Below, one piece after another: positions 9,198-44,872 of a DNA stretch of 64,000 nucleotides (positions are counted from its first letter, which is position 1; each line of letters opens with the position of its first letter). Position numbers and translations under genes: made by a program. Below the pieces are notes generated by a model that was not told where the DNA came from, made no database searches, and saw only the letters and a program-made list of their open reading frames with translations. The stretch is from a virus: the IMG/VR virus record IMGVR_UViG_3300042359_000646, positions 78,453 to 142,452 of that record. One strand, 5' to 3'.

Positions 9198-9569
9198 GTG
9201 AGAAAATTATTACGTAATTGGATTGAAGGTCTATACGAAGCTACCGAATCTTGGGTAGAGCGAGAATCTCATTGCTTGACCTTAGAAGAACATAAAGAAG
9301 CATACCTATCCAATTTACCGAGTAGGATGGCAGAAAGATATGTAGCTAAAAACTACAATACTGTGCCTAGGCACGAAAAGTACTCTCTTCCAGAGTTTGA
9401 TTGTACTAAATGGTATGTAGTTCAAAAATCTACTGGTATTGTGTGTGAGCGTGGGTACAATTCAATACATGAAGCCTTACGTTCGGTGTCTAGCTATCAT
9501 GAGGAGTATTACTCTGAGTGGGTACGAGATAATTTACATAATATCGATATACCAAATCGAAGGTGGTAG
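9198..9569 (+). CDS. Hypothetical protein, 123 aa, GTG start
   Basis: Starts with GTG at 9198 after a near-perfect AAGGAGG (9186-9192), one of the strongest ribosome-binding sites in the window. The protein is rich in Trp, Tyr, Glu and Arg (NWIEGLYEATESWVERES, KWYVVQKSTGIVCERGYNSIHEAL). The middle segment KWYVVQKSTG..ERGY-x-S-x-x-EAL looks like the small domain in which a strand-turn-strand is followed by a helix, common in phage accessory proteins. No family assigned. Transcription probably ends before the module region beginning at 9579. Confidence 0.55.
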   Translation: MRKLLRNWIEGLYEATESWVERESHCLTLEEHKEAYLSNLPSRMAERYVAKNYNTVPRHEKYSLPEFDCTKWYVVQKSTGIVCERGYNSIHEALRSVSSYHEEYYSEWVRDNLHNIDIPNRRW

Positions 9570-9578
9570 TATCTCATG

Positions 9579-9599
9579 CGCCGATGGGCTGTGAAGAGG
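9579..9599 (+). repeat. 21-bp element upstream of module copy 1
   Basis: This word is identical at 20 of 21 positions to 43431-43451; the shared core is GGGCTGTGAAGAGG. Both copies lie about 260 bases upstream of the first gene of a two-gene module (9836 and 43699). It is too long and too similarly placed to be chance. It may be a leader RNA element, a protein-binding site, or simply the conserved edge of the duplicated block. Confidence 0.75.
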
Positions 9600-9748
9600 G
9601 GGGTCTTGAATGATGATGCTGATTAATCGTAATGTTTATATTTATAATGTCTGGACGGTACAGTAAAGGTTTATAGACAGCTAAAATAATTTCTTCTAGA
9701 CGTTTTTATGTGTACTTATAGCCTTAATCACTATAAAAGACCTTGTAA

Positions 9749-9775
9749 CTTATAAATTATATTTTTGTTTATAAG
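9749..9775. promoter_or_regulatory. Inverted repeat upstream of module copy 1
   Basis: CTTATAAA (9749-9756) and TTTATAAG (9768-9775) form a perfect 8-bp inverted repeat with an 11-base AT-rich spacer, ending 19 bases before the extended -10 element of the downstream promoter. This overlaps the expected -35 region, the usual position of an operator. The binding protein is unknown; the module's own first gene is a candidate. Confidence 0.5.
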
Positions 9776-9791
9776 CTAAGTAAAAATAGTA

Positions 9792-9800
9792 TGCTATAGT
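9792..9800 (+). promoter_or_regulatory. Extended -10 promoter of module copy 1
   Basis: TGC followed by TATAGT (9795-9800) is an extended -10 box. The surrounding word AAAAATAGTATGCTATAGTGG is nearly repeated at 43658 (AAAAATAGTGTGCTATTATA), upstream of module copy 2, and the TGTGCTATAGTGGG core also precedes the gene at 17776. There is no good -35, which extended -10 promoters do not need. Confidence 0.55.
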
Positions 9801-9835
9801 GGTTATAACGTTGAAAATATGGTATAACATTATAA

Positions 9836-10534
9836 ATGAGTATAGAGCCGAAATTAGTGAGTAACTTACAAATAGAAGTACGAAGAACTCCTCCAGACTT
9901 CGAGACTACCAGACGAATTATTTCAGAGCTTACTGGTGTTGATGAAGAGCCTAGCCTTACCAAAGTAACTCAAGTAGTAGAGCTACTATCGCAAAGCTTC
10001 TTGTCCGAGGTAGCTAAACTGATAGCTGCTAACGAAAATACCAGAGAAGGGAAAACAATCAAACCGAACAAACTTGCTTTGCTTTTGCGCCAAAATACTT
10101 ATCTACTAAACGATTTTGATGTTGTTGCAGATGAAGATGGCGAGAACCTAAAAATTCATTACAAAGGTAAGTCGGATACAGTAACAGTCTACAAAGCCTA
10201 CGACTATTTACGTCTTGAGTTGGCTAGATTTGTGGGGTATAGAGAATTTGACAACAGAACTATCTCTAGAGCCATCATGCAAGCTAAGAACTACCTTGAG
10301 TACGACAAAGACTTCATTGACTGCAATATTGCTGATGCTCTTGTAGTTGAAAAAGCCTACGCTCTTTTTTACTCTAGAGGGAATAGAAAAAACATCACTA
10401 TCCCTGAACTAAAAAGGACAATCGATTCTGTAGACCTTACTACAAAAGAGATTCAAGATATTCTTCTCAATGCTGGTTGGGAATATACAACATCAGGAAC
10501 CTGCCCCACTAAATTTTTTAAACCAAAACACTAA
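9836..10534 (+). CDS. Module gene A, copy 1: DNA-binding-like protein
   Basis: A 232-residue protein paired with the GIY-YIG gene that begins six bases later. A segment at about residues 74-105 (KTIKPNKLALLLRQNTYLL then DFDVV) aligns with the other copy (43699-44391: KKISETKLARFF..HLLVNFD). The C-terminal 50 residues (ITIPELKRTI, LTTKEIQDILLNAGW, TKFFKPKH) look like a winged-helix unit. That unit matches the C-terminus of copy-2 gene A and, unexpectedly, the C-terminus of the copy-2 GIY-YIG protein. It has no signal or membrane segment. A sequence-specific DNA-binding or regulatory role is inferred from the shared domain and operator-like DNA upstream. No named family recognised. Confidence 0.6.
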   Translation: MSIEPKLVSNLQIEVRRTPPDFETTRRIISELTGVDEEPSLTKVTQVVELLSQSFLSEVAKLIAANENTREGKTIKPNKLALLLRQNTYLLNDFDVVADEDGENLKIHYKGKSDTVTVYKAYDYLRLELARFVGYREFDNRTISRAIMQAKNYLEYDKDFIDCNIADALVVEKAYALFYSRGNRKNITIPELKRTIDSVDLTTKEIQDILLNAGWEYTTSGTCPTKFFKPKH

Positions 10535-10539
10535 AAAAC

Positions 10540-11079
10540 ATGGCACAAACATTTATCTACGCTATCCATTGCCCCAATAAGAATGAAATCAAAATTGGTT
10601 ATGCAACTAATCCGACTAGTAGACTTTCACAGCTTCAGGTTGGCACTACAGATAGACTTGACCTCTTAATAACATTTGCAGGTGGTCTTGCAGAGGAAAA
10701 AGAGATACACAAGGCTCTTGCCAAACATAAAATCTCTGGTGAATGGTTCAAATACTCTCCAGAAGTTTTCTCTGTCTTGATTGATGCAATGGCGAACCAA
10801 TTCCCTATTACTAGAACTACCGCCAATCCTAAAGTAGTAAGGCAACTTGAAAGGCGGCTGGCTCTAAGTTTAGAATATATTGATGAATTGCTTCAAGAAC
10901 GTCTAGAGCGTCTTAACACGATTAAAGAAGTGCAAGAGCTTATGAAAGAATCTTTTTCAGATTGTAGGCATCTAGTTTCAGGTATGTTGAATGTTCCTGA
11001 AGTGTTTAGTGAATTAACTGATTCTGAATTTGTGGCAGTTTTGCAAAAATATTCTGAATTAATCAACAGGGACAATTAA
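10540..11079 (+). CDS. Module gene B, copy 1: MUG113/T5orf172-type GIY-YIG protein
   Basis: The first 95 residues are a compact GIY-YIG-like domain of the MUG113/T5orf172 class: FIYAIHC (Y7), VKIG-type strand IKIGYAT (Y21), R28 in PTSRLSQLQVG, acids with H57 in EEKEIHKAL, and the closing GEWF (67-70). All positions expected of an active or DNA-binding GIY-YIG fold are present. The remaining half is helical (EYIDELLQERLERL). Such domains occur in phage and cyanobacterial proteins of poorly known role, often with Bro/KilA-type DNA-binding domains. It is nearly identical in its first 70 residues to 44393-44872. The partner gene A lies six bases upstream. Confidence 0.8.
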   Translation: MAQTFIYAIHCPNKNEIKIGYATNPTSRLSQLQVGTTDRLDLLITFAGGLAEEKEIHKALAKHKISGEWFKYSPEVFSVLIDAMANQFPITRTTANPKVVRQLERRLALSLEYIDELLQERLERLNTIKEVQELMKESFSDCRHLVSGMLNVPEVFSELTDSEFVAVLQKYSELINRDN

Positions 11080-11081
11080 CC

Positions 11082-11408
11082 ATGAACAACAAAGTACTTA
11101 CAAACTTCCGCGACCATCCCTCACTTCGCTACGACGACCCACAATCTCTCTTCAAAATCGACGACAAAGTATATCTCATCAGTGAAGGTGTTGTGCGCCA
11201 AATTATGCCTCGGCAAATGGTCAACACTAACATTGGGGAGCCTTATAAAGCGTTAACTAGGTTCTATTTTGTATTTGCAGATGACAGTCAAAAAACTTAC
11301 ATGGAATCGATTGATTTTGCCCCAAAACACGAAGAATCTCTAAGGCAATTGCTTGAAGAACCTCAAACCTTAATGGAGTCATTGGACAAAGTAGGATTAC
11401 TATGCTAA
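11082..11408 (+). CDS. Hypothetical protein, 108 aa
   Basis: Starts two bases after the GIY-YIG gene and probably shares its transcript. It has alternating strands and a helix: FKIDDKVYLISEGVVRQIM, then YFVFADDSQKTYMESIDF and a C-terminal helix with acidic residues. It ends overlapping the next gene by seven bases. It is soluble and no family is recognised. It has no counterpart after module copy 2, so it is probably not part of the module itself. Confidence 0.55.
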   Translation: MNNKVLTNFRDHPSLRYDDPQSLFKIDDKVYLISEGVVRQIMPRQMVNTNIGEPYKALTRFYFVFADDSQKTYMESIDFAPKHEESLRQLLEEPQTLMESLDKVGLLC

Positions 11409-30682: not shown

Positions 30683-31528
30683 TTATAACTCACTCAGATG
30701 AGACAATTTTTCTGCATCGGTAGCTAAGCGCCATTCTGACCATTTCGGATTGTCAGATTTAACTCTGTAGAATACTGTCTTATAGGTAACTTCTTTAGTT
30801 TTTGAAGCTTTGTCAATAGATTTATAGTATTCTCCACATACTATTACAGGTACACTACAAGCTGCACTAATTTTCGCTTTAATTGCGTCAGGACAAGGTT
30901 TGCCAAAATTATGGTTATTTACCCCACTTTTAGCCACACTGATTTTTAATTTATGCTCTTCACTCAGTTTTTTGCCCTTTTGAGCAGCACTCATATTAGC
31001 TTTAGCTTCAGGTGTGTTATGGGAAATTTTAATACTGGCTCTATGTTCTTCGCTAATTTTTTTACCTTTTTGACTAGCGCTCATCTTTCTTTTAGTTTCT
31101 TCCGTTTTGGGTTTACCTTTTAGTGCAGTACTGAGTTTCATCCTAGTTTCAGGATTCACAACCGTACCTTTCTTGGTAACAGACATCTTCTTTTTAGTTT
31201 CCTCTGAATGTTTCAAACCCCAACACCCTTTACCACCCAATCTAATATTGTAGGTATCTTCACGTAGAATAAAATCTGCTGTAACTACCTTAGCTTCAGC
31301 ATCGTAGGCATTTTCGGGGCAATTGAATTCTGCTAAAGTTACTCTGGTAAAATTTTCTATGCCGTATTTTTCGATAGCTGGTTTCAAAGCATAACCACTT
31401 CCAAGATAATTCTTAGACCTTTTAGTGTTAGCTAATTTATGTACCCCAACATAAATTTTGCCATTGCAAACGTTCGTAGTTTGATATAAAATCCAAGTCT
31501 CAACCATTGCGTATACTCGTCCTTTCAT
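30683..31528 (-). CDS. GIY-YIG homing endonuclease with NUMOD repeats
   Basis: A 281-residue free-standing homing endonuclease. The N-terminal GIY-YIG domain shows WILYQTTNVCNGKIYVGVHK (two Tyr strands), then the loop with NYLGSG, RYGIEN-type IEKYGIENFT and a catalytic-region ENAYDAEAKVV. About 105-230 is a chain of NUMOD3-like units (SEETKKKMS, SEEHRASIKIS, SEEHKLKISVAKSG), and the end (SIDKASKTKEVTYKTVFYRVK) is NUMOD1-like, both DNA-binding. Such genes spread by cutting intronless or genic target sites. It lies directly upstream of the portal gene, on the same strand. A second ATG (31507) follows AAAGGA and could be the true start. Confidence 0.85.
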   Translation of the reverse strand: MKGRVYAMVETWILYQTTNVCNGKIYVGVHKLANTKRSKNYLGSGYALKPAIEKYGIENFTRVTLAEFNCPENAYDAEAKVVTADFILREDTYNIRLGGKGCWGLKHSEETKKKMSVTKKGTVVNPETRMKLSTALKGKPKTEETKRKMSASQKGKKISEEHRASIKISHNTPEAKANMSAAQKGKKLSEEHKLKISVAKSGVNNHNFGKPCPDAIKAKISAACSVPVIVCGEYYKSIDKASKTKEVTYKTVFYRVKSDNPKWSEWRLATDAEKLSHLSEL

Positions 31529-32829: not shown

Positions 32830-32903
32830 GCGGAACTAGCTCAATTTGGTAGAGCCAGCCCCTTCCAAGGGAAAGGTTAAGAGTTCAAGTCTCTCGTTTC
32901 GCT
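32830..32903 (+). tRNA. tRNA-Gly (TCC)
   Basis: Acceptor GCGGAAC pairs with GTTTCGC (one G-T pair), D-stem GCTC/GAGC, anticodon loop CTTCCAA with TCC (32864-32866), and T-arm AAGAG-TTCAAGT-CTCTC. The lower two pairs of the anticodon stem are mismatched (A-A and G-A), which is tolerated in some phage tRNAs but may lower function. It reads GGA, a common glycine codon in AT-rich phage genes. Confidence 0.75.
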
Positions 32904-32906
32904 TAA

Positions 32907-32979
32907 TCCTCTATAGCTCAGTTGGTAGAGCGTCGCGCTGTTAACGCGAATGTCCTTGGTTCGAGTCCAAGTGGAGGAG
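32907..32979 (+). tRNA. tRNA-Asn (GTT)
   Basis: A regular cloverleaf: acceptor TCCTCTA with TGGAGGA, D-stem GCTC/GAGC, anticodon stem TCGCG/CGCGA around the loop CTGTTAA with GTT (32939-32941), variable loop ATGTC, T-arm CTTGG-TTCGAGT-CCAAG. It begins three bases after tRNA-Gly, which suggests processing from one precursor transcript. Confidence 0.88.
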
Positions 32980-32982
32980 TCT

Positions 32983-33054
32983 GGGTTATTAGCTCAGTGG
33001 GAGAGCAGTGGTTTTGTAAACCAAAGGTCGTCAGTCCGAATCTGACTTTGGGCT
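32983..33054 (+). tRNA. tRNA-Thr-like (TGT) with broken acceptor stem
   Basis: D-stem GCTC/GAGC, anticodon loop TTTGTAA with TGT, anticodon stem with four of five pairs, and a T-arm GTCAG-TCCGAAT-CTGAC with all five pairs. The acceptor halves at the usual positions (GGGTTAT and TTTGGGC) pair at only about three positions. GGGTTA could instead pair with TAATCC (33055-33060), which would place seven extra bases after the T-arm. It may be a degenerate tRNA or a tRNA-like RNA. Its 3' end reaches the stop codon of the convergent gene. Confidence 0.45.
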
Positions 33055-43359: not shown

Positions 43360-43430
43360 TTAATCGCTAGTTTGTATGCTCGATGTGTAACCTCTGGTTG
43401 TAATGACTGGGGGTTTCTTGTATTCTCAGT

Positions 43431-43451
43431 CGCCGAAGGGCTGTGAAGAGG
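43431..43451 (+). repeat. 21-bp element upstream of module copy 2
   Basis: This matches 9579-9599 at 20 of 21 positions, differing at one base just before the GGGCTGTGAAGAGG core. It lies 268 bases upstream of module copy 2, compared with 257 bases for copy 1. The preceding sequence AACC...GGGTT with T-rich end (about 43390-43420) is a weak candidate terminator for the gene before it. Confidence 0.75.
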
Positions 43452-43536
43452 AGATTGTTCTAGGAGGAGGATTAGAAGTATTAGGAAGGGTACTTTTGCT
43501 ATTACTTTCTACGAGACTACGTTGTTTCAAGCCTCT

Positions 43537-43647
43537 AATAGTCTGCAAATATTTTTAGCAAATCACTAAAATAACCTAGCAGTAAAACGGTAAGTAATAA
43601 TTACAAGCCGAGAAACCCTGCAAATAGTCTGCATAGATAACCTAGCA
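43537..43647. repeat. Paired direct repeats upstream of module copy 2
   Basis: AATAGTCTGCA occurs at 43537-43547 and again at 43623-43633; ATAACCTAGCA occurs at 43571-43581 and 43637-43647. The order is the same each time, but the spacing differs (23 and 3 bases). The second pair ends about 20 bases before the extended -10 element, a position that suits an operator. Repeats of this kind are typical of binding sites for an oligomeric regulator. Confidence 0.6.
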
Positions 43648-43667
43648 AAAGTGATGCAAAAATAGTG

Positions 43668-43676
43668 TGCTATTAT
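43668..43676 (+). promoter_or_regulatory. Extended -10 promoter of module copy 2
   Basis: TGC with TATTAT (43671-43676) or the overlapping TATAAT (43674-43679) makes a strong AT-rich -10 with an extension, within a word almost the same as that upstream of copy 1. The gap to the ATG at 43699 is about 20 bases, so the leader is very short. Confidence 0.5.
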
Positions 43677-43698
43677 AATAAAAAGACTATTAAAGTAC

Positions 43699-44391
43699 AT
43701 GAAATCAGCAAACCCCGAAGACTTACTAAAATTAAAGCTAGCAGAACGACCGCTAGAGCCTTATGAGATTGCAGAGTTGTTTACCCCAGACAATTACAAA
43801 ATCAGTGCCTTGTTACTTGCAAAACAACACGCTCAGACTGTAGATATGCTTCAAGGACTTCAAAACACCCTCGATGAAGTTAACAAACAGCAAAAAGAAA
43901 CACAAAAGCTCTTGGTAGAGTTATCTACCGACAAGAAAATCTCTGAGACTAAGCTAGCTAGATTTTTTACTACTGCGCCCCACCTACTTGTTAACTTTGA
44001 CTACGATTTTGAAAAAAAGTCCATCACTTTTAAAGAATTGCCCCTAGAAGCTGACTCTGAAGAAATTGCATTTTTATCTCTGAGTCTTGAGGAATACTTT
44101 GGGACTAATCACATTCCTTTTTCTGTACTTCTCAGTGGTATCAAGCGTTACTTTGCAATCAAGAAAAAACAGAACTTCGCTATTCGAGATTTCCTAGAAG
44201 ATTACTGTGAAGAGACTTTAGCCAACACTAAAACTAAAAAGCGTACAAGAATCTATTTTAAGAACTTGAAAGCTGCTTGTGAAGACTGTCCAGAAATTAC
44301 TCCCAAAGTTATTAAGGATGTAATGCAAGATTTAGGCTACGAGCAAAAGACCGATGCTTCTAGAGTTATATTTTTTGAGAAAATTAAATAA
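43699..44391 (+). CDS. Module gene A, copy 2: DNA-binding-like protein
   Basis: A 230-residue protein paralogous to 9836-10534. Shared blocks are the region around residues 75-105 (STDKKISETKLARFF, HLLVNFDYDF) and the C-terminal winged-helix-like unit (ITPKVIKDVMQDLGYEQKT, VIFFEKIK). A coiled coil lies at about residues 50-72 (MLQGLQNTLDEVNKQQKET) that copy 1 lacks. The middle is basic (IKKKQNFAIRDFLEDY, TKTKKRTRIYFKNLK). It begins after the repeats and promoter above and is followed, one base later, by its GIY-YIG partner. Regulator role inferred; no named family. Confidence 0.6.
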   Translation: MKSANPEDLLKLKLAERPLEPYEIAELFTPDNYKISALLLAKQHAQTVDMLQGLQNTLDEVNKQQKETQKLLVELSTDKKISETKLARFFTTAPHLLVNFDYDFEKKSITFKELPLEADSEEIAFLSLSLEEYFGTNHIPFSVLLSGIKRYFAIKKKQNFAIRDFLEDYCEETLANTKTKKRTRIYFKNLKAACEDCPEITPKVIKDVMQDLGYEQKTDASRVIFFEKIK

Positions 44392-44392
44392 C

Positions 44393-44872
44393 ATGGCACA
44401 GACATTCATTTATGCTATTCACTGCCCTAATAAAAACGAGGTCAAGATTGGATATGCAACTGACCCATTAAAACGTTTGGCAACTTTGCAATGTGGGACT
44501 ACTGACCGACTGGACTTACTTTTTACTTTCAAAGGTGGTATTGAAGATGAGAAATTATTGCATCAAAGGTTGGCTGGCTCTAGAGTCTCTGGTGAGTGGT
44601 TTGTCTATAATGTTCATGTATTGCAAGAATTGCTTACTTACCAAGAAGAAGTTTTCCCTACCCCAATTGATTTTGTACCAGCCGAAATAGAGACTCAAGG
44701 TATTTTAAATGTTGCCTATAGTTTCAACAGATTATTCACTACGGCAGATGTCAAGAAAGCAATACCCAGCTTAAACTGGTCAAAAGAAGAAATTGCAGAG
44801 CTACTTTTAGGTAACGGTTACACACTGAAGACTTACCCTTCCAACCGAGTTAAATATTTTAAAAAACCATGA
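44393..44872 (+). CDS. Module gene B, copy 2: MUG113/T5orf172-type GIY-YIG protein
   Basis: The start chosen is ATG 44393 (MAQTFIYAIHCPNKNEVKIG), which matches copy 1 exactly at the first 16 residues; the frame extends upstream only through gene A. Landmarks: FIYAIHC, VKIGYAT, KRLATLQCG, EDEKLLHQRL and GEWF. After residue 110 it diverges from copy 1 and ends in a unit (FTTADVKKAI, WSKEEIAELLLGNGYTL, VKYFKKP) that matches the C-terminus of gene A copy 1. One base separates gene A and gene B. The exchange of this domain between partners is unusual. Confidence 0.8.
   Translation: MAQTFIYAIHCPNKNEVKIGYATDPLKRLATLQCGTTDRLDLLFTFKGGIEDEKLLHQRLAGSRVSGEWFVYNVHVLQELLTYQEEVFPTPIDFVPAEIETQGILNVAYSFNRLFTTADVKKAIPSLNWSKEEIAELLLGNGYTLKTYPSNRVKYFKKP

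Follow-up and report, generated by a model that had tools for sequence, protein, structure and literature searches.

Why does a phage genome carry the same two-gene arrangement more than once, with second genes that still resemble each other in their first halves and first genes that have diverged strongly? This question was raised by a 64 kb stretch of DNA (hereafter the window), namely bases 78453-142452 of the 142,452-base IMG/VR virus record IMGVR_UViG_3300042359_000646 (G000), whose relatives, as judged from the proteins and the DNA of the locus, are the Pseudanabaena phages PA-SR01 (MT234670) and Pam2 (ON014754). A first-pass annotation of the window had described two pairs, each consisting of a DNA-binding-like gene (A) and a nuclease-like gene (B), and both are present as placed: A1 (9836-10534) with B1 (10540-11079), and A2 (43699-44391) with B2 (44393-44872), all on the plus strand. 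We found that A alleles are exchanged, together with their leaders, as cassettes with a conserved 5' boundary element, that B has captured the winged helix at the end of A on four independent occasions, with purifying selection acting on the borrowed domain of B2, and that at least one B persists as a remnant.

The A genes are alleles that occupy defined sites in related phages

A loci were collected by profile searches in G000, PA-SR01, Pam2 and further IMG/VR contigs, several of which are fragments; site labels (1-5) were assigned from flank matching, some of them by one flank only. These searches yielded 23 distinct A loci. Spread over five sites in the related phages, they represent at least 11 allele types. 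In G000 itself there are four A-B pairs, of which two lie in the window and two upstream of it (G000:25163-26349, minus strand, and G000:44419-45670), and given this number and the mosaic domains described below, the simple module duplication proposed in the first-pass annotation was rejected. Its statement that gene A has diverged strongly was confirmed: A1 (232 aa; a variable regulator-like protein of group I) and A2 (230 aa; group II) are ~20% identical and linked solely through other family members, with groups I and III being clearly homologous (E about 1e-22) and the link between groups II and III being weak (E about 1e-3). Further A-B pairs were found in related phages. Among bacterial genome contigs and plasmids no relative of A was detected in a scan by short conserved peptides, which can miss distant relatives; among named phages, none was found besides PA-SR01 and Pam2. 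The nine A proteins were too diverged for their joint alignment to serve a collection scan. Every A gene detected belongs to a phage-like record, where it occupies a defined site in the phage genome.

Judging from its sequence, A is a fast-diversifying protein that ends in a winged helix-turn-helix (wHTH) domain. For A2, an N-terminal coiled coil, a middle domain and a C-terminal wHTH are predicted (mean pLDDT of the AlphaFold2 model, 75), and the C-terminal domain of A1 (10328-10531) is a putative wHTH by homology with A2 and B2. No named Pfam family matched A above its cut-off and there was no match to KilA-N or BRO; sub-threshold winged-helix matches to the C-terminus were obtained with DsrD in 4 of 9 members, A2 among them, and with WH_MCM2 in 2 of 9. 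A Rep-type initiator was also considered for A and rejected, as no family matched and both sequence and fold searches of PDB returned weak winged-helix-like similarities only, none with E <= 0.001.

Cassettes are exchanged at a conserved boundary element

At site 1, the A1 locus, conserved neighbours (9198-9569 upstream and 11082-11408 downstream) enclose seven different alleles in ten records, namely A1, A3, A6, A7, A9, A10 and A11. Site 2 is occupied by A7 in PA-SR01, by A2 with a chimeric B (GIY-A7C) in G000, by A3 in G005 and by A8 with a cut-down nuclease in G004. A1 shares 96-98% amino acid identity with its counterparts in PA-SR01 and Pam2 (dN/dS 0.02-0.03). Different alleles at the same site match each other up to a short element upstream of A, usually with 80-100% identity in the last 30 bp, and are unrelated after it; copies of the same allele at different sites are unrelated before the element but share 63-83% identity over the 30 bp directly behind it. 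This element, TCATGCGCCGATGGGCTGTGAAGAGG at site 1 (9574-9599) and TCAGTCGCCGAAGGGCTGTGAAGAGG at site 2 (43426-43451), both on the plus strand and with the core TCA-n2/3-GCCG-n1/3-GGCT, is the fixed left (5') limit of allele exchange.

The first-pass annotation had recognized 21 bp of it (9579-9599 and 43431-43451) as a shared upstream element, and the two copies do agree at 20/21 positions (expectation 0) and precede A by 257 and 268 bp, the whole record containing no other near match; what it had missed was the role as exchange boundary, as well as the DNA-binding domain of another allele that is carried by B. In G000, PA-SR01, Pam2, L006 and L016, every exact match to the relaxed core TCAn(2-3)GCCGn(1-3)GGCT lies upstream of an A gene, with 0.15 matches expected per random genome. 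Phage loci retrieved with a longer element pattern in a collection scan also have an A behind the element, and three other matches of that scan, where no A was seen, look like chance. The element may simply be a shared stretch where crossovers occur, or it may be a cut site. It is unlikely to be the operator of A, because it is common to all alleles while the leaders are allele-specific, and because homology switches right at this position. Two other candidate functions, a structured RNA (3 predicted pairs only, no covariation and no Rfam match) and a reverse-strand promoter (a chance-level match only), were rejected. At site 2 the element is immediately preceded by a terminator-like hairpin of the upstream gene (43389-43415), and at site 4 of two phages it occurs twice in tandem, 34 bp apart (L004:4096-4145 and L069:1203-1252).

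Downstream of the boundary, the leaders go with their alleles. The A1 leader, a putative operator/promoter (9610-9835, plus strand), shows 82% identity to its counterpart in PA-SR01 and 77% to that in Pam2; these 225 bp stay with A1 in PA-SR01 and, at another site, in Pam2, and an inverted repeat of this leader (ATTTATAATGT at 9640-9650 and ACATTATAAAT at 9827-9837) is kept in both phages. The A2 leader, a putative operator (43452-43698, plus strand), is also found with A2 at site 4 of G004, its final 150 bp being 83% identical. The leaders of A2, A3 and A6 are kept between sites, as is the leader start for A7, and these four leaders contain repeats beyond chance: GTACTAA five times for A3, TCTTTGTAA/AACTATGTA three times for A6, CTTGTACA three times for A7 and AATAGTCT three times for A2. 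The description of both upstream regions as repeat-rich holds for A2 (4/300 shuffles) and fails for A1, whose repeats are within chance; 15/16 bases match around the annotated extended -10 element, while a -35/-10 scan gave no forward promoter. Since A travels with its own upstream leader, its self-regulation is plausible, and A is most likely a self-regulating DNA-binding protein that would act on this leader through its C-terminal winged helix.

B encodes a GIY-YIG protein that comes and goes behind A

The assignment of B1 and B2 to MUG113/T5orf172 was borne out, both proteins scoring above the Pfam cut-offs (22.3 bits for PF13455 and 20 bits for PF10544) with 41.6/36.5 bits for B1 and 46.8/33.2 bits for B2 (MUG113 E values 2e-10 and 5e-12, respectively). 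The GIY-YIG domain comprises residues 1-88 in each (44393-44656 in B2); in B1 (179 aa) it is followed by a helical-looking tail that is unrelated to A, and B1 is not chimeric. The claim that the two nuclease halves are almost identical for 70 residues was overstated, as the identities are 37/45, 50/70 and 54/88, and the C-terminal halves are unrelated. Across the 10 intact B proteins the first 88 residues constitute one GIY-YIG family (33-99% identical), in whose alignment R28 and E53 are conserved in 10/10. By analogy with the origin-directed nuclease (Odn) of ICP1 and with I-TevI, these would be the catalytic Arg and Glu positions, and B, given its family and the kept residues, probably cuts DNA.

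The repeated regulator-nuclease module seen in the window recurs in several phages, every one of the 10 intact B genes starting directly behind an A. In this sense the pairing is tight, though not obligate: 13 of the 23 A loci are without an intact B, and A4 was found with several different B. At site 2 of G004, B is internally deleted, with the nuclease down to 20 residues before the 3' end of A7, and at site 3 of G006 it is possibly reduced to its 8-codon start. Homing genes show this pattern, being present in some genomes and absent from others at a site whose flanks are conserved, and leaving degenerate remnants. A toxin-antitoxin pair or a switch between lysis and lysogeny, the latter having been suggested in the first-pass annotation, would fit a two-gene operon whose first gene is DNA-binding; yet a stable two-gene pairing is contradicted both by the loci that lack B and by the varied partners of A4, the PADLOC defence-system models gave weak GIY-YIG matches only, and a role in lysogeny, for which no integrase search was made in this genome, is not supported, PA-SR01, the closest isolate, having been described as lytic (PMC10286775). 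We consider such a function highly improbable.

Two further gene types were observed near these loci. A separate small protein of 108 aa with a weak GIY-YIG-like match is encoded at L004:6066-6392, with similar open reading frames in other records of the lineage, and in G000 it lies directly downstream of B5. A second type of partner gene stands behind A at L021:27658-28128 (Pam2_81) and L049:7276-7728; the encoded proteins (150-156 aa, 46% mutual identity) share their initial MxQTF codons with B and diverge thereafter; the gene is one more exchangeable module of site 1. Pam2_81 had no Pfam match, and the L049 protein matched neither PADLOC nor NCBIfam models.

Four B proteins end in a winged helix of another A allele

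The C-termini of B are not one family overall, and in four B proteins the C-terminus is an A-type winged helix. In B2, this wHTH (44701-44872, plus strand) is borrowed from A7, the allele at site 2 in PA-SR01, with 98% amino acid identity over 55 residues and 92% DNA identity over 172 bases. The B of G002 (L006) carries the domain type of A1 (67-71%), the site-4 B of G004 that of A5 (66%), and the B of G010 matches A9 and A2 (58-62%). An AlphaFold2 model of B2 comprises a GIY-YIG domain and an HHH-EE winged helix (mean pLDDT 86.8, pTM 0.51). In the tree of these domains the four B sequences fall in four separate places, a single B clade being rejected (p-AU 1.5e-61), and two of them group with the same-site allele of another phage: B2 with A7 of PA-SR01 site 2 (support 99/99) and the site-4 B of G004 with A5 of G000 site 4 (98/94). 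These are four independent captures of an A winged helix by B. All four fusions are in frame, have a common starting point at a domain border (about residue 163-177 of A) and retain the winged helix complete to the stop, and in 4/4 the partner A belongs to a different group than the borrowed domain. The borrowed domain of B2 is under purifying selection, as its comparison with A7 gave a dN/dS of 0.04 (11 synonymous and 2 non-synonymous changes). The occupants of site 2 (A2 with GIY-A7C in G000; A8 with a nuclease remnant and the A7 3' end in G004) imply that the fusion persisted there through at least one replacement of the A in front.

Could B nevertheless be an ordinary free-standing homing endonuclease beside A, with the fusions as by-products of recombination that ended inside the resident A? 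GIY-YIG genes are found at exchange boundaries in other phages (PMC10448857), the presence, absence and remnants of B follow the homing pattern, several B have unrelated tails, and at site 2 the 3' end of A7 is still in place and runs into the same flank as in PA-SR01. This explanation, which we regard as a serious minority possibility, does not sit easily with four in-frame fusions at one domain border that each keep the whole winged helix, nor with the selection acting on the B2 copy. Moreover, the captured domain at site 4 is far more diverged (70% DNA identity) than its flanks (92%), so that this fusion is not a fresh scar.

Another possibility is that A and B are two regulators, with B, acting as anti-repressor or co-regulator, in competition with the A alleles for operators, and with cutting secondary or absent. 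The gene order is operon-like, B carries A's own type of DNA-binding domain, and GIY-YIG enzymes such as I-TevI are known to double as repressors (PMC10448857). However, the Arg and Glu of the presumed catalytic pair are kept in every intact B, and the borrowed domain is never that of the partner A nor, as sampled, that of another A in the same near-complete genome, which makes a purely regulatory pair quite unlikely.

A nuclease aimed at rival alleles as the preferred reading

Our preferred reading, for which belief and doubt are about evenly balanced, is that the A alleles are self-regulating DNA-binding proteins and that B is a homing or interference nuclease aimed by its borrowed domain at the operators of rival alleles. 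An allele cassette, consisting of a leader with its own repeats and of A, would move between phages and genome sites through exchange at the conserved 5' boundary element. Because its winged helix comes from the donor allele, a chimeric B should bind the leader of that allele and not that of its own partner, and would cut rival genomes there; for B2 this aim is suggested by near-identity, and less strongly so for the other chimeras. The predicted target of B2 is the A7 leader with its three copies of CTTGTACA. Cutting during co-infection would either eliminate the rival locus or force the A-B cassette into its place, as with a homing endonuclease or Odn. The borrowed domain suggests that the targets of B are related viruses in which the donor allele is still present, and the exclusion role proposed in the first-pass annotation would persist in this form, as an attack on related phages.

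Several observations weigh against this reading. In about half of the B proteins an unrelated tail stands where the others have a borrowed winged helix, so that captured-domain targeting can account for only part of the B family. The difference between partner and donor group in all four chimeras is weak on its own (chance probability about 0.2 for three groups of equal size), the leader repeats of A1, A4, A5 and A8 are no more than chance, and recombination at the 3' edge of the exchanged segment could have left the captured domain behind as a scar. In the two large records with a chimeric B, G000 (B2) and G004 (site-4 B), there is no A of the group that the chimera would target, which matches self-avoidance and, with two genomes, could be chance.

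B might also be an Odn-like nuclease directed against satellites, with the A family or its targets present in satellites of these phages as well. The nuclease family and the trick are those of Odn (PMC8263062), and the repeats in the leaders of some A alleles are iteron-like; yet the scan of bacterial genome contigs and plasmids by short conserved peptides, which can miss distant relatives, gave no relative of A, and each A gene found sits at a defined site of a phage-like record. We judge this version very unlikely.

As an extension of the preferred reading, B may be part of a drive that re-aims itself, with the incoming nuclease fusing in frame to the DNA-binding domain of the displaced resident A and thereby gaining its specificity. 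This proposal is tentative and we hold it to be rather doubtful; if true, each replacement would arm the cassette against the version just displaced, and would diversify A together with its operator.

Other features of the records

At 30683-31528 the window encodes, on the minus strand, a GIY-YIG homing endonuclease of the conventional kind that has NUMOD3 motifs; a relative lies upstream of site 1 at L016:555-1364. Three tRNA genes are clustered at 32830-33046 (Rfam). In the Pam2 record (ON014754), several product names, such as neurexin and neurotoxin on proteins of structural gene blocks, look mis-annotated.

Comparison with known systems

We found no paper on the A family or on A-B fusions, and ORF3 of PA-SR01 is recorded just as a T5orf172 protein. 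Iyer, Koonin and Aravind are said to have described in 2002 viral regulators of the KilA-N/BRO/T5orf172 type with shuffled domains, in which regulator and GIY-YIG parts are recombined; A differs from these in matching neither KilA-N nor BRO. The intron-encoded endonuclease gp210 of PhiPA3 is reportedly aimed at a fixed site of its rival and carries no captured DNA-binding domain. This intron homing endonuclease serves the competition between co-infecting phages (PMC11620839), a contest like the one proposed for B. A survey of T5orf172 homing genes placed them at genetic-exchange boundaries with shuffled DNA-binding domains (PMC10448857), as seen here. Those islands mostly combine zinc-finger (CapR/DUF723/DUF4397) domains and lie beside essential structural genes (PMC10448857), whereas in the present loci the domains are A-type winged helices, the boundary element is fixed and the cargo is a hypervariable regulator.

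By analogy, the closest precedent for the B chimeras is Odn of ICP1 (gp88), a T5orf172 nuclease equipped with a satellite's RepA_N domain, with whose help it cuts the iterons of that satellite (PMC8263062), and given this close functional precedent, the first-pass statement that no such phage system had been described was too strong. In both cases the Arg and Glu of the catalytic positions, presumed ones in B, are kept, and the adversary's DNA-binding domain and its binding site vary together as a module (PMC8263062); for B, the domain came from another A allele in four captures, and the carriers of that allele would be the adversaries. Odn has an N-terminal RepA_N and a C-terminal T5orf172 domain and is aimed at the satellite's replication origin, while in B the order is reversed and the C-terminal domain is a winged helix of the A family taken from phage alleles, so B would work like Odn without being its homologue in architecture. 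Also unlike Odn, a chimeric B is paired with a different A allele, captures occurred at least four times, and there are several sites per genome. An Odn-like trick seems to have arisen here repeatedly within a single phage lineage, directed at alternative alleles of a regulator that belongs to the phages themselves. The matched sets of domain, donor allele and leader DNA would form a natural series for nuclease retargeting and for homing genes becoming weapons between phages, and the conserved boundary element next to a hypervariable site makes phage cassette exchange traceable base by base.
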